From NCBI GenBank assembly GCA_017432005.1, contig JAFRKA010000015.1, forward strand, positions 62,001 to 126,000: a stretch of 64,000 bases of DNA, written 5' to 3'. Source of the DNA: Erysipelotrichaceae bacterium (GTDB lineage Bacteria > Bacillota_I > Bacilli_A > Erysipelotrichales > Erysipelotrichaceae). Both the position numbers and the translations under genes were made by a program. Each line of letters opens with the position of its first letter. Within the stretch, counting starts at the first letter, position 1. Positions 22,994 through 34,636 of the stretch are shown here, in pieces. Under the pieces are notes generated by a model that worked only from the letters and a program-made list of their open reading frames with translations, did not search any database and was not told where the DNA came from.

Positions 22994-23002
22994 CGATCCC
23001 TG

Positions 23003-23030
23003 AAACAATGGCCTGAAGACCATTGTTTTT
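23003..23030 (+). terminator. Terminator after the nucleoside kinase
   Basis: 9-bp stem AAACAATGG/CCATTGTTT with an 8-base loop and a T-run. Confidence 0.88.
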
Positions 23031-23041
23031 ACTGTAAAAAC

Positions 23042-23087: not shown

Positions 23088-23117
23088 TAGACACCATTTT
23101 TAAATAAAATATATAAT
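23088..23117 (+). promoter_or_regulatory. Promoter of the adhesin-SipW operon
   Basis: -35 TAGACA at 23088-23093, an 18-base spacer and TATAAT at 23112-23117, giving a leader of about 88 bases. The leader holds an imperfect dyad, GTGTGAAACTTACAC, near 23163-23177. Confidence 0.7.
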
Positions 23118-23211
23118 TATATTAACGAATTATGCGCTTTTTTCATGGTTTGATCTTTTTGAGTGTGAAACTTACACCGATCGATCAGAAAGAATATTGG
23201 GGTAAATGATT

Positions 23212-26200
23212 ATGAGAAAGAAAAGATTCCTGAATCTCAGTAAACTTCTGATTATTGCAGCACTGTTTGCATGTGTTTTTTCATACCGCATTTATGCGGA
23301 AGAACCAAAGAATGAAGGTTCAGGTACCGATGATACAGTGAACACTGAAGGTACAGGATCTGGAGGAAACGATTCTTCCGGTAACGGTAGCGGAAACCAG
23401 GGTGAAGGAAGTGGTCCTTTCAGCAATGACAATGGAAACCAGAATGAAGGAACTGATTCTTCTGGCAACGCAGGTACTGGAAATGATCCTGCTGCTCCTG
23501 CTTTAACAACAGTGGCAGGAACAGGAGCATATTCTACGACTCCTGGTTCAAACAGTGGCAACGACGAAGGCAATGGTCAGAATGGCAATGGTGGTGATGC
23601 ACCGAAGAGCCCAACTGTTAAAGAAGCTGGTGATTTTTTGGTTACCGGTCCGGATGAAAACAGTGAGTTTGATGAAGAAAAAGGTGTTCTGGTAATTAAA
23701 GGTGATGTCAGTGTAAAAAATAAAGATGATGTTGAAATAACAGGCCAGAGCATTATTGTTTCTGCAAGCTGCACTGTTGTTCTGGAAGGAATCAATATCG
23801 AGGCAGCTAAAGGACCCGCTATTCTTATCGGATCTCCGAATAATGTCACTTTAGCATTAGCGGATAATACGGTTAATACCGTAACCGGAGCTCCAGGTGT
23901 AAACGTCAACGCAACTAAAGGCTCTTTTGCCGGAATAGAAGTTGAATTTGAATTTGAAGACACAGAAACCCCCGCCAATAAAATGGCTTCTCTGACGATT
24001 AACGGAAATGGTACTTTAAATGCGACCGGAAACGCTAATGCTGCAGGTATCGGCGGAAGCAACAGCGCCGGAGGAAGTAAAGGCAGAGGATTATACGGCA
24101 ATATTACAATTGACAGCGGAACTATAAATGCCACAGGTACAGGCGGAGGAGCCGGTATAGGATCCAGCAATAATCCGAATGGTGGAACCAGCATCGGTTC
24201 TTTTAAAGCAACCGGATATAATACCTGGGGAACAATAACGATCAACGGTGGTAAAGTAACTGCTAGAGCAGGCAATGCTGCAGGTATCGGTGGCGGTAAT
24301 CACGTTGACAGCGGAAAGATAATCATCAATGGCGGAACTATAGACGCAAAAGGTAACTCTGGCATCGGATGTGGTACCGGTTCGTCAAAAAACATGGGTA
24401 ACAATGATGATAGCAACAAAGGACCAGGTTACTATTTTGTGGATATTGAAATAAACGGCGGAGACATAACTGCAACTGCAAGTGGAGATGATAACTGGGG
24501 CGGCGCCGGCATCGGTGGCGGAGGTTATGCTGACGCAATTATTAAGATCACTGGTGGAACAATCAAAGCTCAAGGTGGAAGTTGCAAAGATCATAATTCA
24601 TTCCATCATGGTGGTGCCGGTATCGGCGGTGGATATGAAAGTCATGCCAATATAACCATTACCGGCGGTACTATTTATGCATATGCCGGATATTCTGCAG
24701 CTGCTGGTATCGGCAGTGGAGGTACACCAAACTCAAATCCAGACAGAGGTAATACAGGCAGAAGTACGGTAGAAGGAGTAACCAGACTTACAGAAACTGA
24801 AATTTTAATCAGTGGTGGAGAAGTTCATGCCTTCGCTTATCCGGAGAATTATGATAGTACTGTTGCGGTCTGTGACAGAGGTGGTGCAGGCATAGGTGGA
24901 GGAACTGGAGCAGATAAGGTAACAGTTACCATTACCGGAGGAACAGTTGAGGCCTGGGGTGCCCCTTCAAATGAAGATGATATGAATGGTGGAGCTGGTG
25001 GTGGAGCTGGTATCGGCTCAGGTTTATATGCACCAAATCTAACAATTCCTGGCACAAATAACAAAGAATCTGCTAAGTATCAGGTTGAAACTGATGTCGA
25101 TATTTCCATTACCGGAGGAACAGTACTTGCTGTTGGCGGATGGGGAGCTGCTGGTATTGGTTCCGGTGCCAGAAACAAAATGGCAAACACCATAATAATC
25201 GACAACGAGAAAGCAGATGTTGTAGCTTATGCAGATGGAACAAAATTCGCAATAGATACAAGAGATCTTCATGAAGACGGATCAACTACCAGTCATACTG
25301 AAGGAAGAACGATTACCGGATACATGTTACAGGGAACGCTTGTTCATGATTATTCACAACCGGAAGGCGAAACAACTTTAAATCAGAATACTGAAGGTTT
25401 GGATGATATTCAGGTCATCAACGATGAAACTAATGAAAAGAGAATTCTTACAGGTATGCCTTCAGGATATCGTTCTTTTGCAACGACCGTTTCAGAGCAG
25501 GGTATCTATACTGTCTATACAGATTCTGAGCACATTTCAAATGGCGGTGGCAGATATTTTACGGAATATGACTATGATGTGATTCCTGATACTTATTGGG
25601 ATGAAAACATAGATTATGGCAGACTTGTACAATATGCTGTTGGAGATAAAAAGGATCAGTTATCAGATAATTTCTATTTGTATCCGGTTAAATCAATCGT
25701 TGTAAGTAAAGAAGTAAACACTGAAGATGGTCTGGATGTAACAGGAATTAATCTTGCAGCTTATTTTACTATCAGAGAAAAGAAATATGATCTAGATGGC
25801 AATAAGATTACAACCGATGAAGTCTATCTAAAGATAAAAAAAGGTGAGGACATGGTTAGATGGATACAGTCTATCGAAATAGTAAATGGCGTTCCACAGA
25901 ATAAAGTGTATTTCACCAATATTGAAGATAAGACTTACGAAATCCTAGAAGTAGATGAAAAAGGAGAACCGCTCAATACTAAAACAGGTTCTATACCTTA
26001 TGGCGAAATCATTTTAAAGAAGATAAGTACCAAACATGGTGATTTAATACATCCGGATCAGGAGGACCAAAGTTATACATTGGATAACGATGGCATAATT
26101 TCTGCACAGGTCTGGACCGATTATGTAACAGTTGTAAACACTTATGGTATTGATAACAAAGCTGATATTGTGATCAGAAAGATCCTGCCGGCAGAATACA

Positions 26201-26586
26201 GATTTGATCAGTATACTGATATGACAGTCGTATTCAAAGTTCAGGTCGTCAACAACGACGGTGTGACTTACGAAAACCATGTTGGTCTGACTATGGACAC
26301 TGACAGTGCAAGATGGGACAGTGACCTCAATGCTTATGTATATGAAAAGAAACTGAAAGATGTTCCGTTCAATCCGTTAACTGATGAATTCAATGTTGAA
26401 GAAGTCTATACAGCCGGTTATGAAGGAACAGTCAATGCCATCAATCTGATAATAGAAGAAAAGAACAAGTATTATCGTGTTGATACTGTTAACACGGTCA
26501 AGGATTATATTCCAACTACCGGAGCAGTTAACTCATACAGCAACAAGGCCTATGTTCCACAGGCTGTTGAGGAAGGAGGCGAATGA
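23212..26586 (+). CDS. Giant secreted repeat adhesin
   Basis: About 1124 residues. The signal ends near RIYAEEP. A Gly/Asn/Ser/Glu-rich linker runs to about residue 135. About residues 265-690 hold ten AGIGG/AGIGS units, most followed by an I-T-G-G-T-I/V-x-A strand, as in a right-handed beta-helix or carbohydrate-binding surface domain. The C-terminal third looks like collagen-binding-B-type beta-sandwiches. The end carries YIPTTG but has no membrane helix or basic tail, so normal sortase anchoring is not possible as read. GGGG at 23199 fits the ATG at 23212 better than the one at 23206. Base composition is richer in A and T than neighbouring genes, which may mean transfer. Confidence 0.85.
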   Translation: MRKKRFLNLSKLLIIAALFACVFSYRIYAEEPKNEGSGTDDTVNTEGTGSGGNDSSGNGSGNQGEGSGPFSNDNGNQNEGTDSSGNAGTGNDPAAPALTTVAGTGAYSTTPGSNSGNDEGNGQNGNGGDAPKSPTVKEAGDFLVTGPDENSEFDEEKGVLVIKGDVSVKNKDDVEITGQSIIVSASCTVVLEGINIEAAKGPAILIGSPNNVTLALADNTVNTVTGAPGVNVNATKGSFAGIEVEFEFEDTETPANKMASLTINGNGTLNATGNANAAGIGGSNSAGGSKGRGLYGNITIDSGTINATGTGGGAGIGSSNNPNGGTSIGSFKATGYNTWGTITINGGKVTARAGNAAGIGGGNHVDSGKIIINGGTIDAKGNSGIGCGTGSSKNMGNNDDSNKGPGYYFVDIEINGGDITATASGDDNWGGAGIGGGGYADAIIKITGGTIKAQGGSCKDHNSFHHGGAGIGGGYESHANITITGGTIYAYAGYSAAAGIGSGGTPNSNPDRGNTGRSTVEGVTRLTETEILISGGEVHAFAYPENYDSTVAVCDRGGAGIGGGTGADKVTVTITGGTVEAWGAPSNEDDMNGGAGGGAGIGSGLYAPNLTIPGTNNKESAKYQVETDVDISITGGTVLAVGGWGAAGIGSGARNKMANTIIIDNEKADVVAYADGTKFAIDTRDLHEDGSTTSHTEGRTITGYMLQGTLVHDYSQPEGETTLNQNTEGLDDIQVINDETNEKRILTGMPSGYRSFATTVSEQGIYTVYTDSEHISNGGGRYFTEYDYDVIPDTYWDENIDYGRLVQYAVGDKKDQLSDNFYLYPVKSIVVSKEVNTEDGLDVTGINLAAYFTIREKKYDLDGNKITTDEVYLKIKKGEDMVRWIQSIEIVNGVPQNKVYFTNIEDKTYEILEVDEKGEPLNTKTGSIPYGEIILKKISTKHGDLIHPDQEDQSYTLDNDGIISAQVWTDYVTVVNTYGIDNKADIVIRKILPAEYRFDQYTDMTVVFKVQVVNNDGVTYENHVGLTMDTDSARWDSDLNAYVYEKKLKDVPFNPLTDEFNVEEVYTAGYEGTVNAINLIIEEKNKYYRVDTVNTVKDYIPTTGAVNSYSNKAYVPQAVEEGGE

Positions 26587-26588
26587 TC

Positions 26589-27110
26589 ATGAAGATGAAT
26601 AAAACCATTCTGTTCTCTATTCTGTTTGTAGCTGTATCGCTGTTTATGTTTACGACAGTATCCAAGAGCGGTGCCTGGTTCTCCAGTTACAGAGAACTTG
26701 ATGGCGGTGCCAATCTGAGGCTTTCTCATGAGACGACTATTATTGAGCAGATCGATGATGGTAACAAGACCATAGAAGTATATAATTCCGGAGAAACGGA
26801 TGTGGTCGTGAGACTTCAGATCTTTGGAGGAAATTTTGTAAATATCGAAGCCGGAAAAGACTGGACCAAGTCCGGAGACTGGTATTACTACAGCAAAGTA
26901 CTTAAAGCCGGAGAATACAGTGACCGCGGTAATGATGGCGCCGGTATCATCAAAGCAACAGTAATCGGTGATGGTACTCCGAATTTCGACTTTGACGTAA
27001 TCGTCATTGTAGAAGCTGAAAGAGCTGTCTATGACAGCCAGCAGCTGATCGCTCCTTTAGAGACATGGGATATCGAATATCCTGTTTCGGGACAGGGAGG
27101 TAATGCGTAA
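26589..27110 (+). CDS. Small TasA/CalY-like secreted protein 1
   Basis: 173 residues. A basic-hydrophobic signal leads into SKSGAWFSSYRELDGG, like the processing region of SipW-dependent fibre proteins (an aromatic pair shortly after the membrane core, then an acidic turn). A compact beta-rich domain follows, including IEVYNSGETDVVVRLQI. Such proteins form extracellular fibres in bacilli. GGAGG at 26575-26579, within the adhesin's last codons, is 9 bases before the chosen ATG. The link to TasA is by N-terminal pattern and the SipW neighbour, not by overall similarity. Confidence 0.65.
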   Translation: MKMNKTILFSILFVAVSLFMFTTVSKSGAWFSSYRELDGGANLRLSHETTIIEQIDDGNKTIEVYNSGETDVVVRLQIFGGNFVNIEAGKDWTKSGDWYYYSKVLKAGEYSDRGNDGAGIIKATVIGDGTPNFDFDVIVIVEAERAVYDSQQLIAPLETWDIEYPVSGQGGNA

Positions 27111-27868
27111 TGGTTAAAAGATCTATTGCGATATTTACACTGACATTATCCTTTGCGATGCTGCTGTTTGCAGGAATGCAGTTGTCAGAAACAAGATCTG
27201 CTCCTAACCCTGGAACAGAGAACTATAATACTTCGCTTTCTATTTCAACACTCGATATTATGGCTGTTGATGAAAAAGGCAATGAAGTAAAAGAATTATT
27301 GAGCAGTTACAGTGGAAAAGAAACGCTGGAACTTGGAATGCTTTATCCTGAATATCTGGCTGCAGAAAACATTGGAAGAAGCGATGAATATGTCAGAGCT
27401 ATCGTCCGTAAATACTGGACAGATATGAATGGCAATAAAGTTACCAAAGTCGATGCAAAGACAGAAAACAACACTGTCACCAAAACAGAAGCTATCGATC
27501 CGGAATACATCATTCTGGAAGGAAGAGATGCTTCATGGCAGCTGGATGAGAATACTTCCGCAAGAGAAACAAAGATCTATTACTGGAAGAACAAACTTGC
27601 TGCCAGGGAAACTACCGGTGCACTGATGACCGGTATCAAGATCTCCAAAGATGTTCGTGATCATTACGTAGAAACGATCAAAGAGACAGAGAACAGCAAG
27701 ACTATCACTGTCACTTATCTCTACGATAATCTCAAGCTCAATCTGGAAATCGAGATCCAGTCAGTTCAGGCCAATGAAAATGCGATCAGAAGTATCTGGG
27801 GAGTCGATTATCTTTCTGTTGAAGGTGATACCCTCAAGATAAACGGACAAGGAGGCTCAAATGAATAA
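27110..27868 (+). CDS. TasA/CalY-like secreted protein 2
   Basis: 252 residues with an N-terminal signal (MVKRSIAIFTLTLSF, hydrophobic to about residue 25) and a soluble, charged mature part. YNTSLSISTLDIMAVDEKG near residue 45 resembles the first strand of SipW-dependent fibre proteins. There is no anchor. It shares one base with the gene before and overlaps the next by 8 bases, so synthesis is tightly coupled. Specific function is unknown; a fibre subunit or cap is the best guess from context. Confidence 0.6.
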   Translation: MVKRSIAIFTLTLSFAMLLFAGMQLSETRSAPNPGTENYNTSLSISTLDIMAVDEKGNEVKELLSSYSGKETLELGMLYPEYLAAENIGRSDEYVRAIVRKYWTDMNGNKVTKVDAKTENNTVTKTEAIDPEYIILEGRDASWQLDENTSARETKIYYWKNKLAARETTGALMTGIKISKDVRDHYVETIKETENSKTITVTYLYDNLKLNLEIEIQSVQANENAIRSIWGVDYLSVEGDTLKINGQGGSNE

Positions 27869-28553
27869 GATATTCAAACTTGTAATGTGTTCCTTGTTGC
27901 TGAGTCTGCTGTGTATGAATATCATATCGGCAGCAGACGGCGGAGTCGTATATGACGGCAAGAAGATAAAAGTTACCGGTGAAGCTGATTTCCGTGAGCT
28001 TCTTCCGGGTGAGGAAGTATCATTCAATGTGGTATTATCCAACACTTCCAACAAGAAGACGGAATGGTATATCTCCAATGAAGTTCTTTCTTCCTTTGAA
28101 GAGAGCAAGAATAAACCGTCAGATGGCGGTTATACCTATAAGCTTTCTTATAATGGAAAGGAACTGTATAACTCCGAGAATATCGGTGGTAAAGATCTTA
28201 ACGGTCTCAAGCAGCTGAATGATGAGACCAACGGCAAGTTCTTCTATCTCGGTTCACTTGATCCGAAGGCTACAGGAACGATCTCTGTGACAGTTGGCCT
28301 TGACGGTGAATCACAGGCTAACGACTATATGGAAGCCATGGCCGATCTGCAGATGAAGTTTGCAGTAGAAGAGGAGAAAGCCAGCAAGATCACTTCCAAG
28401 AAAACAGTCAGATATTATATGCCTAATACCGGTATAGAGGAAGCTGCACAGAAGAAAGAACTGACAGCATACTACCTGATCATTGCAGCAGCTATGATCA
28501 TGATGTCGGCATCAAGTGCTTATCTGATCCATACCAGAAAGGAGGCCAGGTAA
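27861..28553 (+). CDS. Surface protein with LPXTG-like (MPNTG) anchor
   Basis: 230 residues: a signal ending near IISAADGG, a domain whose LLPGEEVSFNVVLSNTSNKKTEWYI is in the style of TasA-like and NEAT-adjacent beta-sandwiches, then MPNTG, a membrane helix and the basic tail HTRKEAR. That order (motif, helix, positive tail) is a sortase sorting signal with Met replacing Leu. No sortase gene lies in the window. GGAGG is 6 bases before the ATG. It may anchor the fibre made by the neighbouring genes. Confidence 0.7.
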   Translation: MNKIFKLVMCSLLLSLLCMNIISAADGGVVYDGKKIKVTGEADFRELLPGEEVSFNVVLSNTSNKKTEWYISNEVLSSFEESKNKPSDGGYTYKLSYNGKELYNSENIGGKDLNGLKQLNDETNGKFFYLGSLDPKATGTISVTVGLDGESQANDYMEAMADLQMKFAVEEEKASKITSKKTVRYYMPNTGIEEAAQKKELTAYYLIIAAAMIMMSASSAYLIHTRKEAR

Positions 28554-28554
28554 G

Positions 28555-29466
28555 ATGAAGAAACTTATAATGGCTATCCTGGTCGCTCTGCTTATCATCC
28601 CGGTAAGCACAGTTGCGGCTGATGATTATTCTTATGATGTAACAGTTTATACCGGTGATCAGGGACAGTTTGAAGATGGTTCTACTTCCAGGAAGATCAC
28701 AGTCGATCCGGGCAGCGAACTTGTAATTTCGTTCGATTCAGATACGAATGTGATCACTGTCAACGGTACGAATTACGTACTGCAGATGAAAGATACCGAT
28801 TCCAAGTATTCGGCGATCGGTTTCAAGAGGACCGGTTATGACAACAAGCAGTTCATTGCATCCTACAAAGGAACTGTTAATGAAGATCTGAGCTTTGTCG
28901 TAACTTACGGTATCAGTGGCAGTCTGATCGAATACAAAGTTATTTATAAGACTGACAGCGGAACGGTTCTGGGAACATCTGTATACAAAGGCAAGGTAGA
29001 TGATAAACCGATCGTGGCAGCATTGCCGTTTGACGGTTATCTGCCTGATGCCTACAACCGTACCAGAACACTGAAAGAAGGAGAAGATAATACTTTCACG
29101 TTCATCTATCATCCGGCAGGAAGTTCAACAGAAACAGTAGAAGAGACCGAGTATATCACTCTTGATGACGGAACAGTCGTTCCGGCAACGACCGGCGGCA
29201 ACAACACAGCCGCACCGGCAGCAGGAAATACTGAAACGGTCGAACCGGTCGAGATCATCGATGAAGATGTACCTCTGGCCGGACCGAGCGTATCCGATAC
29301 ATCAGAACAGGCTGCAGGCATAGACAATCCTGAAGCTTCGGTACCGGAATTCGCTTCACACGCTACACCGTTCAATCTGATCCTGGTCGTAGCAGGTATC
29401 TTATCACTTCTGATCCAGCTGATGTTCATCATCCTGGCAGAAAGAAAAACAGTAGAGGAAGAATAA
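28555..29466 (+). CDS. Membrane-anchored surface protein with MucBP-like domain
   Basis: 303 residues. The signal ends near VAADDYS. A YKVIYKTDSGTVLG segment and a TFTFIYH end resemble mucin-binding (MucBP) repeats. A Thr/Ala/Glu-rich linker contains DEDVPLAGP, a short motif often found before the wall anchor of Bacillota surface proteins. A C-terminal helix (NLILVVAGILSLLIQ onwards) and an acidic tail hold it in the membrane. The tail lacks the positive charge of a sortase substrate. Confidence 0.65.
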   Translation: MKKLIMAILVALLIIPVSTVAADDYSYDVTVYTGDQGQFEDGSTSRKITVDPGSELVISFDSDTNVITVNGTNYVLQMKDTDSKYSAIGFKRTGYDNKQFIASYKGTVNEDLSFVVTYGISGSLIEYKVIYKTDSGTVLGTSVYKGKVDDKPIVAALPFDGYLPDAYNRTRTLKEGEDNTFTFIYHPAGSSTETVEETEYITLDDGTVVPATTGGNNTAAPAAGNTETVEPVEIIDEDVPLAGPSVSDTSEQAAGIDNPEASVPEFASHATPFNLILVVAGILSLLIQLMFIILAERKTVEEE

Positions 29467-29988
29467 ATGAAAGAAAAACGCAGTATGAACAGCAGCAGAT
29501 CAGTCAGTCTCGTACTGCGTTTTTTTGCGATCATGCTTCTTGGATTCACACTGATCATCACCGGTTCACTGATCGTTCCGCGTATCTTCAACTGTGCTCC
29601 GTACGTGATCATTTCTGAAAGTATGACACCGGAACTGAATGTCGGTGATGTGGTCTATGTGAGAGATGAAGATCCTTCGACATATGCCGAAGGTGATGTG
29701 ATCAGTTTCTACATGAATTCTGATGCTCTGACACCTGTGACCCACAGGGTCGTAAAGAACGATCTGAACAAGAAAGAATTCGTCACCAAGGGCGATGCGA
29801 ACGAGAAAGAGGACATCATTCCTATTCCTTATGAATATGTGATCGGCAGAGTCAAATTCAGGATACCGTTCATCGGCAATATCCTGCTGTTTCTGGAATC
29901 GGTCACAGGCAAGATCATCTTTGTCCTGCTGTTCCTGGCAGGGGTCCTGATGATGGAACTGAGTAGTCTCAAAGCGGTCAGAAAATAA
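29467..29988 (+). CDS. sipW: SipW-type signal peptidase I
   Basis: A membrane-bound signal peptidase of the ER type (S26B), which uses a Ser-His pair instead of Ser-Lys. Seen: an N-terminal helix, the nucleophile Ser52 in SESMTPELNVGD, His93 in VTHRVV, the TKGDANEKED box at about 108-117, and a second helix near the C-terminus. 173 residues, as in SipW. In Bacillus, SipW processes TasA and TapA. Its position directly after four exported proteins points to them as substrates. No start spacing remains from the previous gene. Confidence 0.92.
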   Translation: MKEKRSMNSSRSVSLVLRFFAIMLLGFTLIITGSLIVPRIFNCAPYVIISESMTPELNVGDVVYVRDEDPSTYAEGDVISFYMNSDALTPVTHRVVKNDLNKKEFVTKGDANEKEDIIPIPYEYVIGRVKFRIPFIGNILLFLESVTGKIIFVLLFLAGVLMMELSSLKAVRK

Positions 29989-29997
29989 CCGCTTTTT
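29971..29997 (+). terminator. Terminator ending the adhesin-SipW operon
   Basis: Stem AAAGCGGT/ACCGCTTT followed by TTT, overlapping the sipW stop. It separates this operon from the next. Confidence 0.75.
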
Positions 29998-30027: not shown

Positions 30028-30960
30028 ATGAAGACAGTCAGAATCTTATCTGTTTTTATGCTGGTGATCCTGATGCTGAGTGGCTGTTCATCAGAAGGAA
30101 GCAGTGAAAAGCCGGGCAATGATACACCGCCTGAAAACACGGAAAAATCATCTGAAAAATACAAGGTTCCGGAATATGCGGAAGCTGTTTTTCATGAGGA
30201 TATGGCTGAAGGTGAAGGCGATGTCTATATCGACATCTCAGCTGTTGAACAGGGTTATGTAGCAGTCTCAGCCGTTTCTGACAGCCGACTTAAATTCCAG
30301 GTTATAACAGGTGATACCTATAACTATGATCTGAAGAATGACGGTACACCATCGATCTTTCCTTTGCAGAGCGGAAACGGTGAATATACTTTCCGGGTCA
30401 TGGAGAATATCGTCGATAATTCCTATGCGCCACTTTATGAAACAAGTGCTGATGTGACACTGCTGGATGAATTCCAGCCATATATAAGGACAAACAATTA
30501 TGTTAAATATGACAGAGATTCAAAGTGTGTGAAACTGGCCAGTGAGTTTTCTGCTGATTCCAGTGATGCCATGGATCTCATCGATCATGTCTTTACATAT
30601 GTCTGCGAAAACATCGTTTACGATGCTGATAAGGCATCAAGCGTCACTACCGGTTATATTCCTGATCCTGATGAGACTATTTCATCACGCAAGGGCATCT
30701 GTTTTGATTACGCATCACTGACGGCTGCAATGTTCCGTTCACAGGGCATTCCGACCAAGGTCATCTTCGGTTATGTCTCACCGGATAATCTTTATCATGC
30801 ATGGAACATGATCTATACGAGCGAACAGGGCTGGATCGTGGCGGAATTCAAGATGGATCAGAATAACTGGAATCGTGTCGATCTGACTTTCAGTGCCAAC
30901 GGGGCAAATGCGGAATTTGTCGGCGACGGAAGCAACTATACGGATATATATCAATACTAG
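30028..30960 (+). CDS. Transglutaminase-like lipoprotein
   Basis: 310 residues. Lipobox LSGC lies near residues 17-20, followed by a Ser/Glu/Asn-rich linker. The C-terminal half is a transglutaminase-like papain fold with Cys225 in RKGICFDYA and His257 in YHAWN; the acidic third residue is probably in the AEFKMD stretch. Such domains act as peptidases, crosslinkers or ligand-binding relics. Placed first in the pilus-like operon and just after the fibre operon, it could crosslink or mature surface fibres, but that is inference. Confidence 0.83.
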   Translation: MKTVRILSVFMLVILMLSGCSSEGSSEKPGNDTPPENTEKSSEKYKVPEYAEAVFHEDMAEGEGDVYIDISAVEQGYVAVSAVSDSRLKFQVITGDTYNYDLKNDGTPSIFPLQSGNGEYTFRVMENIVDNSYAPLYETSADVTLLDEFQPYIRTNNYVKYDRDSKCVKLASEFSADSSDAMDLIDHVFTYVCENIVYDADKASSVTTGYIPDPDETISSRKGICFDYASLTAAMFRSQGIPTKVIFGYVSPDNLYHAWNMIYTSEQGWIVAEFKMDQNNWNRVDLTFSANGANAEFVGDGSNYTDIYQY

Positions 30961-30973
30961 GGGGAGTGTGTTT

Positions 30974-32020
30974 ATGGCAAAACAGGGAAAACTCGATCTG
31001 CTGGGGGTCAGTGCTTTCTGTGAAAGCATGGCGATGATGATCCAGTCTGGCATTCAGCTGGATGAAGCAATTTCGCTTTTCACTCAGAAAGACGGCAAAG
31101 GCGGTCTGCTGGATGAAAGCATCACGACCATGGAGAAATGCATCAATGAAGGAAGTACCCTCAAGGAAGCCATGGAGAAGACCGGACTGTTCCCGGAATA
31201 TACACTGCAGATGGTGGAGACAGGCGAATCGACAGGCAAGCTTGAAAATGTGCTTTTCCGTCTTTCCTCGTATTATCAGGAACAGGATCAGATCAGCAGG
31301 AAACTGCGCTCAGCCATTATCTACCCGCTGGCGATGCTGGTGATGATCATCATCGTACTGTTCATCATGCTGAAAGCTGTACTGCCGTCTTTTTCCGGTG
31401 TCTATAACACCCTGACCGGAAGCCTGGCGGACAGTTCCTACCGCTATATAGATTATGCCTACGCGTTCTGCAGGATCGCTCTGGTGCTGATGATAGCACT
31501 GCTCGTGATCTCGCTGATCGCCTGTTTCATGTATAAAGGAAACGGTAAAGCAAAGATACAGAAGCTTCTTTCTGCCAACAGAAGCTGTGCATCGATCATG
31601 GAAGCTCTGGCTTTATACCGTTTCACTTCAGCATATGAAGTACTGCTGGCCAGCGGTATGATGCAGGATGATGCTCTGGAAGAGGCATCAGCCATGTGTG
31701 ACTATGAGCCGGTGAAAAAGAAACTGGATAAGGTAGCTGAACGCATGAAGGAAGGTGTTGGTTTTGCGACAGCTGCCAATGATGCGGAACTCTACGAACC
31801 GATCTATGGCAGGATGCTGATACCGGGAGAAAGAAGCGGCAACACCGAAGATATCTTGAGAAGACTCATCGAACTGCTTTCAAAGTCAGTCATCAATGAG
31901 CTGGACAGACTGATCGCTACGATCGAACCGCTGCTTTCAGGTATCCTGATGATCACGATCGGCATCGCTCTTCTGAGTCTAATGCTGCCACTGATCGGTA
32001 TCATGAATTCCATAGGATAA
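30974..32020 (+). CDS. PilC/GspF-type inner membrane platform protein
   Basis: 348 residues with the two-fold T2SF architecture: domain 1 with FPEYTLQMVETGESTG and SAIIYPLAMLVMII, domain 2 with LASGMMQDDALEEA and a matching LIPGERSG...TIEPLLSGILMI segment. PilC, ComGB and GspF anchor the pilus motor ATPase and recruit pilins. The start at 30974 follows GGGGGAG by 7 bases; a longer frame into the upstream gene is not real. Among the four pilus-related gene types here it is the most recognisable apart from the ATPase. Confidence 0.88.
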   Translation: MAKQGKLDLLGVSAFCESMAMMIQSGIQLDEAISLFTQKDGKGGLLDESITTMEKCINEGSTLKEAMEKTGLFPEYTLQMVETGESTGKLENVLFRLSSYYQEQDQISRKLRSAIIYPLAMLVMIIIVLFIMLKAVLPSFSGVYNTLTGSLADSSYRYIDYAYAFCRIALVLMIALLVISLIACFMYKGNGKAKIQKLLSANRSCASIMEALALYRFTSAYEVLLASGMMQDDALEEASAMCDYEPVKKKLDKVAERMKEGVGFATAANDAELYEPIYGRMLIPGERSGNTEDILRRLIELLSKSVINELDRLIATIEPLLSGILMITIGIALLSLMLPLIGIMNSIG

Positions 32021-32023
32021 AGA

Positions 32024-32338
32024 ATGTATAGAGACAGAAAAAGAAACAATTGGATGATACCTCTTATCATTATGATTATCATGATGAGTGTTTTTGCTGT
32101 ACGCAGTTTCATTAATGAACGTGCCGGCAAAGACAGTGAGGAAGAAAGCATCCTGGCGATAAAGACGGCAGTCGAAAAGAGTGCACTGCAGTGCTATGTC
32201 GTCGAAGGAGCTTATCCGCCTGATCTTAAATATCTGGAAGACAATTACGGACTTAAAGTAAATACTGATAAATACTATGTCGTCTACAATGCATATGCGG
32301 AGAACCAGCTGCCTGATATCAGGGTAGTAAAGAAATAA
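32024..32338 (+). CDS. Pilin-like bitopic protein 1
   Basis: 104 residues: a basic start (MYRDRKRNN), one hydrophobic helix, then a small soluble domain with ALQCYVVEGAYPPDLKYL, which resembles the end of the helix and first loop of type IV pilins and T2SG proteins. The canonical G-F-T-L-x-E prepilin cleavage site is missing. Three bases separate it from the GspF-like gene. Confidence 0.65.
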   Translation: MYRDRKRNNWMIPLIIMIIMMSVFAVRSFINERAGKDSEEESILAIKTAVEKSALQCYVVEGAYPPDLKYLEDNYGLKVNTDKYYVVYNAYAENQLPDIRVVKK

Positions 32339-32343
32339 GAGAG

Positions 32344-32805
32344 ATGAAGCGAAACAAGGATCTGTTGTCAGAGTTTTCAATTATCGGGATCACAGCGTTC
32401 TTTCTTGGCTGTTTCTTTCTGCTGATCATTTTCGGTACCGGTGTCTACAGAGATATCGCCCGTTCCCAGAATGCCAACAGCGAAGAAAGATCTCTTTCGT
32501 CATACCTGCTGACTGTCTCCAAGATGGGCGAGACAGCGATAACTATCGGCAAGAGCGATGACGGCGGAAAGATGCTGGTGATCGAAGACGGTGATACCGG
32601 TTATGGCAACCGCATCTATCTGCATGACGGATATCTTGTTGAAGATTACGGTCAGATCGGCGGCAAGCTGTTCCCGAAGGCAGCGATCAGGATCGCTGAA
32701 GACAGTATCTTTGAAATAGAGAAGATCAGAGAAGACCTGCTGCAGGTCGAGACTGATGCCGGCATCGTCTATATCCATATCAAAAACAGGGAGGCAGCAC
32801 AATAA
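32344..32805 (+). CDS. Pilin-like bitopic protein 2 (DUF4860-like)
   Basis: 153 residues: MKRNKDLLSEFSIIG, one membrane helix, then a domain with repeated G/D-rich turns. Order and size recall DUF4860 proteins, which occur beside GspF-type genes. No prepilin peptidase site is visible. It shares one base with the next gene. Confidence 0.6.
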   Translation: MKRNKDLLSEFSIIGITAFFLGCFFLLIIFGTGVYRDIARSQNANSEERSLSSYLLTVSKMGETAITIGKSDDGGKMLVIEDGDTGYGNRIYLHDGYLVEDYGQIGGKLFPKAAIRIAEDSIFEIEKIREDLLQVETDAGIVYIHIKNREAAQ

Positions 32806-33221
32806 TGAAAAAGGGCAATATGACATTTGCTGTCGAACTGATGGTCATGCTGGTAGTATTCATCGCTGTCATCGAAGTGACGGTTGCCGTCTATGCAAAA
32901 GCCAGGTCTTTATCACTTGATGCCAGACATCTTTCGGATGCGACGATCCTGGCATCCAACGGAGCGGAAGTCTTCCTGGCTGCCGATTCGGATGAAGAGA
33001 TAATAGAGATACTAAACAGAAACAATAATGTGACTGCTGACAAATCGATCAGTATCACTTATGATGACGATCTGAAACCTGATCCTGAAGGAAGGATGAG
33101 GATGGAGATCGAAAGACAGACAGAAAACGATTTCGTCAAAGGACAGATAACCGTCTTCTACGATGATAAGCAGATCTATGATCTGCATACAGGCTATGTC
33201 CTGAACGGAGGTGGACAATGA
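32805..33221 (+). CDS. Pilin-like bitopic protein 3
   Basis: 138 residues. The N-terminus KKGNMTFAVELMVMLVVFIAV is close to a type IV prepilin helix: TFAVEL sits where FTLVEL is expected, with Glu at the fifth position, but Met rather than Gly precedes it. An alpha-helical spine leads to a mixed soluble domain. Of the four small proteins it is the best candidate for a processed pilin. It overlaps the next gene by 4 bases. Confidence 0.65.
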   Translation: MKKGNMTFAVELMVMLVVFIAVIEVTVAVYAKARSLSLDARHLSDATILASNGAEVFLAADSDEEIIEILNRNNNVTADKSISITYDDDLKPDPEGRMRMEIERQTENDFVKGQITVFYDDKQIYDLHTGYVLNGGGQ

Positions 33222-33577
33222 GGAACACTCCGATGAGACTTGGTCTGCTGGCACTGCTGTTAAGCGTGATCGCCATCTGCCTCTCCACTCTGGCCGTGCT
33301 CTCGGTAGCCAGTTCCAGTGCTGATATGCGTCTGGCTGAAAGATTTGCGGACAGTGTATCCACCAGATATGAACTGGAAGAGGAAGGTCAGCGTTATCTG
33401 CAGGAGATGAACAGAAATGTCAGTGAAGATGAGGTGAGCAAGGAATTCAGCAGAAACGGATTCACGCTCAGCATAACATTGCAGAAAAATGAAGACCGAT
33501 ATGAGATAAAATTATGGAAGATAAAGAAACAGTGGGAAGAATCGACAAAGATCGATAATCTGTGGAAGGGAGAATAG
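33218..33577 (+). CDS. Pilin-like bitopic protein 4
   Basis: 119 residues: a hydrophobic N-terminal helix (LGLLALLLSVIAICLSTLAV) runs into an amphipathic helix (SSSADMRLAERFADSV), then a short basic domain. The layout recalls PilX- or ComGG-like minor pilins. No canonical cleavage site. Overlaps the gene before and lies 3 bases before the ATPase gene. Confidence 0.6.
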   Translation: MRNTPMRLGLLALLLSVIAICLSTLAVLSVASSSADMRLAERFADSVSTRYELEEEGQRYLQEMNRNVSEDEVSKEFSRNGFTLSITLQKNEDRYEIKLWKIKKQWEESTKIDNLWKGE

Positions 33578-33580
33578 AAA

Positions 33581-34636
33581 ATGAATCTACATGAGATCCT
33601 GGAAAATGCCATACAGAATGATGCATCTGATATATTCCTGATCCCGGGCGCTCAGGTGACTCTGAAGTGCGGCGGCGGACAGAAACGTCTGGAAGGTGAC
33701 AGACTCGTTCCGGAAACGATCAGTGCCCTGGTCGATGAGATCTACAGCGAATCCGGAAGGACAAAGATCAATCTGGATAACAATCTGGATGATGATTTCT
33801 CATTCTCCATCGCCAAATTCGGACGTTTCCGTGTGAATATCTTCAGACAGCGCGGATCGCTGGCAGCAGTCATCCGTGTCATTCATTTCGGTATCCCTGA
33901 TCCGGAAAAGCTCGGTATCCCTGAGAGCGTTCTTTCCCTGGCTGACAACAAGAAAGGTCTGATCCTGGTCACAGGTTCGGCCGGAACAGGCAAGACGACA
34001 ACGCTGGCCTGTATGATCGACAGGATCAATAAATCCAGAGCCTGTCACATCATCACGATGGAAGATCCGATCGAATTCGTTCATCGTCATGAGAAATCGA
34101 TCGTTACACAGCGTGAGATCTTCATCGATACTCCAAGCTATCTGGAATCTTTGAGATCAGCTCTGCGTGAAAGCCCTGATGTCATCCTGCTGGGTGAAAT
34201 GAGAGACTACGACACGATCTCCGCTGCCCTGACGGCTGCCGAGACCGGAACACTGCTGTTCTCTACTCTGCATACCAGTTCAGCAGCCAATACGATCAAC
34301 CGTATCGTAGATGTCTTCCCGGCATCACAGCAGCAGCAGATCAAGATCCAGCTCTCCCAGATCCTGAAAGGCATCGTCTGTCAGCAGCTGGTCCCGGGTC
34401 TTAACGGTGAACTGATCCCGGCTTTCGAGATCCTCAAGTGCAACAATGCCGTACAGAACATGATTCGTGACGGCAAGCTGCATCAGCTGGAATCAACGAT
34501 GCAGGCAAGTTCGGCTGAAGGCATGTATACGATGGATTCATATCTGCAGAAACTTTATAACGAAGGCAAGATCAGCAAGGAAACTGCTCTGGTCTACTGC
34601 ACAAATTATGATGTGATGTCCAAGCGCATCGGATAA
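33581..34636 (+). CDS. pilT: PilT-type pilus motor ATPase
   Basis: A hexameric secretion-superfamily ATPase on the cytoplasmic face of the pilus machine. 351 residues, the PilT rather than PilB length. Seen: Walker A GSAGTGKT at 132-139, Asp box EDPIEFVH at 161-168, Walker B VILLGEMRD at 201-209, His box STLHTSSA at 228-235, and the PilT-specific AVQNMIRDGK at 290-299 (AIRNLIREGK in retraction ATPases). The PilB/ComGA N-terminal domain and tetracysteine zinc site are absent. It is the only motor ATPase in the cluster and the last gene of the operon. Confidence 0.92.
   Translation: MNLHEILENAIQNDASDIFLIPGAQVTLKCGGGQKRLEGDRLVPETISALVDEIYSESGRTKINLDNNLDDDFSFSIAKFGRFRVNIFRQRGSLAAVIRVIHFGIPDPEKLGIPESVLSLADNKKGLILVTGSAGTGKTTTLACMIDRINKSRACHIITMEDPIEFVHRHEKSIVTQREIFIDTPSYLESLRSALRESPDVILLGEMRDYDTISAALTAAETGTLLFSTLHTSSAANTINRIVDVFPASQQQQIKIQLSQILKGIVCQQLVPGLNGELIPAFEILKCNNAVQNMIRDGKLHQLESTMQASSAEGMYTMDSYLQKLYNEGKISKETALVYCTNYDVMSKRIG

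Follow-up and report, generated by a model that had tools for sequence, protein, structure and literature searches.

Within a 64,000-nucleotide (nt) stretch of an Erysipelotrichaceae bacterium genome (GenBank assembly GCA_017432005.1, contig JAFRKA010000015.1, positions 62,001 to 126,000 of the forward strand; hereafter the window), we analyzed six genes that an initial annotation, made from the letters alone, had read as an operon for a SipW-linked fibre or adhesive coat. The genome comprises 2.19 Mb in 35 contigs. All six genes, called p1 to p6 here, lie on the forward strand between positions 23206 and 29988 (Table 1), and they overlap or abut as the annotation had stated: p1-p2, p2-p3 and p3-p4 overlap by 4, 1 and 8 nt, and p4-p5 and p5-p6 are separated by 1 and 0 nt. 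The six genes do form a unit, with a terminator at either border. The annotation had enclosed it between one promoter and one terminator, of which the terminator at the sipW stop codon stands (z -2.7). The promoter-like site is present and is among the two best of 22 such sites in the region, but shuffled sequences contain 25.1 on average, so that sites of this kind do not exceed chance frequency and the site is weak evidence.

Table 1. Features of the six-gene unit and its borders, with positions counted from the first letter of the window
Feature	Position	Strand	Characteristics
Terminator of the preceding gene, upstream border of the unit	23002..23034 (hairpin 23002-23029)	+	10-bp stem; -10.4 kcal/mol, z -5.1
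Promoter-like site TAGACA-18-TATAAT	23088..23117	+	11/12 consensus matches
p1, secreted giant adhesin, 1126 aa	23206..26586	+	Sec-type signal, Gly/Ser/Asn-rich linker, beta-helix repeats, C-terminal domains
p1 conserved tail, begins GAVNSY, 21 residues to protein end	26521..26583	+	Motif common to proteins upstream of p2
p2, small SipW-type exported subunit	26583..27110	+	Mature start AWF at 26673; SipW-type start conserved in relatives
p3, BsaA-like subunit, probable shaft	27110..27868	+	Weak TIGR04090 match; AlphaFold2 pLDDT 88.1
p4, Sec-exported subunit, C-terminally membrane- or wall-anchored	27861..28553	+	MPNTG at 28419-28433; C-terminal hydrophobic segment
p5, Sec-exported, MucBP-like domain, acidic Pro-containing linker, C-terminal transmembrane segment	28555..29466	+	PF06458 and transmembrane-like segments in relatives
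p6, endoplasmic reticulum (ER)/archaeal-type (Ser/His) signal peptidase, SipW-like	29467..29988	+	TIGR02228 92.7 bits, above the cut-off of 51.85
Intrinsic terminator overlapping the sipW (p6) stop codon	29971..29997 (hairpin 29971-29995)	+	8-bp stem, 9-nt loop, T run; -9.1 kcal/mol, z -2.7

Related loci were collected by scanning GTDB species genomes with an alignment of p3 and keeping the best 80 of 140 confirmed stretches; because they were picked by p3 similarity, these loci do not sample genomes at random. The genes p2-p3-p4-p5 are contiguous in 74 of the 80, all from other genomes, and the six exceptions consist of four stretches that stop at a contig end, one locus in which p4 and p5 are fused (L102) and one with an inserted SipW gene (L099). 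A SipW gene follows within 1.5 kb of p5 in 53 of the 68 loci with room for one, and in most loci neighbouring genes overlap or touch (median gaps of -1, 12 and -4 nt). Gene order, which the annotation had named as a test of its proposal, is thus kept far beyond the window's genome, and because it is conserved in so many loci we consider the operon to be beyond chance.

The sources of the loci include Erysipelotrichaceae, Lachnospiraceae, Oscillospiraceae, Blautia, Coprococcus comes, Eubacterium ramulus, Faecalibacillus and Adlercreutzia. The nearest named records to p3 belong to uncultured Erysipelotrichaceae (62-63 % identity), one of them labelled goat jejunum. Counting the window's own genome, p3 occurs in 16 and p4 in 18 of 61 genomes, and within the order 50 of 315 genomes have p2 (22 of 79 genera). 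In a phylum-wide sample, a p4 profile matched 16 of 392 genomes, seven of them (the window's own included) at E < 1e-18; in the remaining nine, with best E-values of 4e-5 to 9e-4, the match fell mostly on the C-terminal anchor region, and these genomes were not taken to carry the module. Searches of plasmid and phage collections with three queries returned no match. Some genomes hold two copies: L024 and L026 lie in one genome (G024) and L025 and L035 in another (G031), and in Erysipelotrichaceae bacterium OPF54 the module is found both on a 3.1-Mb sequence and on a separate 74-kb sequence (L064 and L065), a pair that may reflect a mobile element or an assembly duplicate.

The peptidase and the start of p2 tie this module to SipW. 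That an ER-type signal peptidase closes the operon is borne out by p6, which is the last gene and passes the TIGR02228 cut-off; on the Bacillus SipW model NF046067 it scores 74 bits, under the cut-off of 190. Its sequence carries SESM and THRV, which we take to be the Ser and His motifs of an ER/archaeal-type signal peptidase. For p2, the column at the mature start reads [ASG][YWFC][FIL] in all 80 relatives and AYF in 68 of them, and a scan of the h-region recovered a SipW-type start in 79 of 80. The same scan recovered none in p3 (0/80), p4 (0/78) or p5 (0/75), and only two among 67 complete p1 proteins. The cleavage region, whose conservation in homologues the annotation had also set as a test, is therefore kept for p2; of the two small exported proteins to which it had attributed such a region, p2 has one and p3 does not, and its suggestion that all subunits are dedicated substrates of the peptidase is contradicted by p1, p4 and p5. 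Some order-level relatives of p3 begin AFF or AYF, and for this reason we take p3 to be a derived SipW substrate, an inference.

Both p2 and p3 are related to BsaA, the SipW-dependent fibre protein of C. perfringens (NCBIfam TIGR04090). The window p3 scores 24.3 bits (E 2.3e-5) and p2 10.1 bits, both under the curated cut-off of 60 bits; at E<=0.001 the model matches 50 of 67 members of the p3 alignment and 32 of 72 members of the p2 alignment, and the p2 and p3 profiles align with each other at a probability of 93.9. As curated cut-offs are not reached, the two proteins appear to resemble the TasA-like class, in the neighbourhood of BsaA, without being members of either family. The annotation had called the members other than the peptidase unlike TasA, which is not supported for p3 and p2 given their closeness to a family likened to TasA, though the TasA/CalY model PF12389 itself has no match. 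One member of the p3 alignment matches NF053671, the archaeal bindosome assembly system protein BasC (E 1.6e-7). In four order-level relatives (L042, L043, L048 and L050), extra TasA/CalY-like proteins with AYF- or AYL-type starts stand in one cluster with one or two SipW genes.

The two genes that follow encode proteins with C-terminal anchoring segments. Relatives of p4 have a transmembrane-like segment at the C terminus in 77 of 78 cases, preceded by TG in 62 of 78. The annotation had described p4 as MPNTG-anchored: although the MPNTG letters and the hydrophobic C terminus are present, its three nearest relatives carry QPKTA, and a Gram_pos_anchor search of the window's own genome (E<=0.1) gave two matches, p4 not among them. 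Likewise, the description of p5 as a MucBP-like anchored protein stands in part. PF06458 (MucBP) matches 17 of 40 members of the p5 alignment and a C-terminal hydrophobic or transmembrane-like segment is present in 71 of 75 relatives; the window p5 has the hydrophobic segment, but no Pfam match and no LPXTG. A single protein of about 530-560 residues combines p4 and p5 in four loci (L037, L038, L039 and L102), and this fusion supports the idea that the two act jointly.

At the other end of the operon, p1 is the repeat adhesin that the annotation had seen, its beta-helix repeats matching PF18889 at 78 bits. The window p1 has neither an LPXTG or other sorting signal nor a C-terminal transmembrane segment (C-terminal hydropathy 0.37). 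What it does have is a tail shared with the proteins that precede p2 elsewhere: the motif G-x-[GS]-[VIA]-x-N-x-[FY] ends the protein directly before p2 in 75 of 79 loci (L085, with no upstream open reading frame, was excluded), compared with 25 of 959 other open reading frames in those loci and 204 of 3950 shuffled tails. Three of the four misses (L055, L100 and L110) are apparent near-misses, and L062 is a true one. Since the pattern had been composed after inspecting the tails of the 80 loci, held-out loci served as an independent test; 20 were fetched, seven duplicates of earlier loci were dropped, and the motif was present in all 13 that remained, two of which are from one genome and have an identical tail. 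Across 87 aligned tails, F-x-N precedes the motif at constant spacing (F in 67, N in 68).

The proteins that carry the tail differ widely, ranging from beta-helix giants (the window, L053, L074 and L093) and other giants of up to 3143 residues to proteins mostly of 320-480 residues. In three of three order-level relatives in which p3-p4-p5 are split off, an adhesin (591, 956 and 1263 residues) lies directly before a p2-like gene and SipW, and all three adhesins end in [IV]xN[TK]F. In 63 short p1 proteins, the domain just before the tail has K in 63, E in 63 and N in 60, a pattern resembling the Lys-Glu-Asn triad described for the isopeptide domain DUF5979 in the available part of PMC12617251; Pfam found DUF5979 in all seven short p1 proteins scanned. 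Because of this resemblance and the Pfam matches, we consider the tail of short p1 proteins to be attached straight onto a CnaB-type domain.

The protein before p2 is thus either a giant adhesin, as in the window, or a short CnaB-type protein, and the two differ in their surroundings. Among loci with at least 1.2 kb visible upstream, the gene immediately ahead of p1 encodes a sortase in 53 of 56 with a short p1 and in none of six with a giant p1 (sortases occur at other positions in one giant-p1 locus, and a further 12 show too little upstream sequence for this count). Of the 52 short-p1 loci with at least 3 kb upstream, 43 encode LPXTG-type proteins there in the same orientation, and Pfam confirmed sortases together with SpaA-type LPXTG pilins in both loci checked (L029 and L034). 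The window operon, being of the giant type, contains no sortase or LPXTG pilin, and the single sortase of its genome is found on contig C32 beside a signal peptidase, with no pilin. Of the two module copies in G031, one is of the giant and the other of the sortase-linked type. Neither the tail of p1 nor the position of the module after sortase-pilus genes in other bacteria had been noted in the annotation.

Structure prediction with AlphaFold2 gave a beta-sandwich for p2 (predicted local distance difference test score, pLDDT, 84.6) and a model rich in beta-strands for p3 (pLDDT 88.1). In both monomer models the first ~20 mature residues are unpaired and of lower confidence, as expected for donor strands. 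Residues 2-194 of the p3 model could be superposed on the TasA fibre (8aur, chain residues 30-236) over 146 aligned residues, with a Z of 4.9 and a root-mean-square deviation of 4.4, a Z tied with those of integrins and other sandwiches; the p2 model found several chaperone-usher pilins among many immunoglobulin-like folds at Z about 6. These VIA-align results are middling ties, and TasA did not come up when p2 and p3 profiles were searched against the PDB. The top Foldseek match of p3, p53 (E 0.015, probability 0.33), was set aside as noise. The modelled folds are compatible with a fibre of the TasA class and are not proof of one.

Taken together, these data support a model, to which we assign a probability of roughly one in two, in which p1 is displayed on a fibre or stalk of the BsaA/TasA class that the operon makes with the help of SipW, with p1 docked on p2 through its tail and p4 and p5 holding the structure at the envelope. 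SipW (p6) would cut the signal peptide of p2, and probably also that of p3, leaving a free N-terminal strand. By analogy with TasA fibres, which assemble through an N-terminal donor strand (PMC9674648, in the part available), p3 would polymerize into a shaft by donor-strand exchange. At the distal end, next to the adhesin, p2 would act as adaptor, and p1, which has no anchor of its own, would dock there with its conserved tail serving as the first donor strand, much as TapA is thought to supply the first strand of the TasA fibre (available text of PMC9674648 and PMC10151520). The Sec-exported and C-terminally anchored p4 may accept the last strand at the envelope, with the membrane-anchored, MucBP-like p5 supporting the base, so that gene order would mirror the order of the fibre from tip to base. 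Such a fibre would explain why the need for SipW is limited to the middle proteins, why p1 has no anchor and why gene order is so rigid. The fibre or adhesive-coat operon of the annotation is therefore supported in its outline, by the conserved p2 cleavage region and the conserved gene order alike.

Several results weigh against this model. The main-clade p3 proteins have no canonical SipW start, PF12389 at E<=0.01 matches none of the 72 p2 or 67 p3 alignment members (nor anything in the window's own genome, in a search that detected the B. subtilis positive), Foldseek returned weak beta-sandwich matches and none at E<=0.001, and the superposition of p3 on 8aur is no better than those on integrins and others. 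A kinship of p4 to p2 or p3 could not be demonstrated (hhalign 1-2 %), and the candidate relationship of p4 to TasA, at PDB-profile E-values of 0.32 and 0.68 alongside ribosomal L19 and a cold-shock domain, was rejected as proof. Tail similarity across loci tracks both p3 (partial r 0.27) and p2 (partial r 0.21), so that covariation, considered as a pointer to p2 over p3 and p4, does not single out p2. Finally, the tail's N-x-F signature is present in only 7 of 92 main-clade p2 N termini; that the tail might be a copy of the strand at the N terminus of SipW substrates fits the three order-level relatives and fails in the main clade, leaving it a suggestion.

We also considered that p2 and p3 form a loose extracellular matrix of the BsaA/TasA kind, with p1 a co-secreted matrix adhesin that is not docked on p2. 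The precedent is C. perfringens, where, in the available text of PMC7395162, BsaA polymers are mainly extracellular and sortase is not needed; yet the same C-terminal tail is kept on otherwise dissimilar upstream proteins and nearly all relatives of p4 and p5 carry C-terminal anchors, which makes a loose matrix rather unlikely. We are more doubtful still of a short, non-polymeric stalk in which p2 to p5 together tether a single adhesin, or a single sortase pilus, to the wall. Such a tether with fixed stoichiometry would suit single-copy genes in conserved order, overlapping or abutting in most loci, but p3 lies in the neighbourhood of BsaA, a protein that polymerizes. The least probable of these alternatives makes the p1 tail a secretion or processing signal, for SipW, p5 or some unknown factor, instead of a docking strand. 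A short C-terminal element present on both types of p1 could have this function, but p1 already has a Sec-type N-terminal signal, and in the window it has no C-terminal hydrophobic segment.

Compared with known systems, the module is a variant of the SipW-dependent BsaA/TasA-class fibres by working principle and not by family membership. As far as the available text of PMC7395162 describes it, the sipW-bsaABCRSD operon of C. perfringens, whose BsaA forms SipW-dependent, sortase-independent filaments, likewise combines a SipW-type peptidase with an exported subunit of the TIGR04090 type. The window operon differs from it in having no two-component genes, in encoding SipW last instead of first, in the tailed giant (or, elsewhere, CnaB-type) protein directly before p2, in the C-terminal anchors of p4 and p5, and in TIGR04090 scores of p3 and p2 under the cut-off. 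With tapA-sipW-tasA of B. subtilis, in the available parts of PMC9674648 and PMC10151520, it shares processing by SipW and an exported subunit of beta-sandwich fold whose N-terminal strand is free (here predicted), whereas it has no PF12389 match and no TapA counterpart by sequence, and adds the adhesin partner and the anchored p4 and p5. TasA-CalY-CapP of Bacillus cereus offers two co-assembling SipW substrates and a wall-located accessory protein, but the accessory families differ, and the part of PMC13082335 available mentions no adhesin with a docking tail. Sortase (SpaA/class C) pili are a further point of comparison: other genomes have the module immediately downstream of a sortase gene and LPXTG pilins, whereas the window operon has no sortase. 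Full-text literature searches, covering titles and the starts of abstracts and leaving most subscription papers and all bioRxiv preprints outside their scope, retrieved no description of the module, of the tail or of a SipW module behind sortase-pilus genes.

Downstream of the operon, at 30028-34636, the window encodes a transglutaminase-domain lipoprotein followed by a cluster resembling type IV pili or type II secretion systems, in which a T2SSF protein, small pseudopilin-like genes and a PilT-like ATPase were recognized by eye. A similar transglutaminase-T2SSF cluster also adjoins the SipW module in L034 and L049. In C. perfringens, deletion of pilA2 is stated, in the part of the source available, to switch the sipW-bsaA operon on.

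The sortase-linked loci raise a further, tentative possibility that we regard as doubtful for now, namely a hybrid pilus. A covalent pilus built by sortase would end basally in the short CnaB-type p1, whose donor-like tail would plug into p2 atop a SipW-processed, strand-exchanged p3 shaft that p4 and p5 fix at the envelope; in the window's lineage, one giant adhesin would replace the sortase pilus. If true, a shared tail would join two unrelated fibre systems of Gram-positive bacteria end to end.

The SipW fibres described previously, as far as the sources available show, belong to the biofilm matrix of Bacillus and C. perfringens. The related module described here is spread across gut Lachnospiraceae, Erysipelotrichaceae and others, where it seems to serve for the mounting of adhesins and sortase pili. 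Its tail is a testable motif and a candidate for how giant adhesins without an anchor stay on Gram-positive cells, and the module itself is a possible physical link between two types of pilus.

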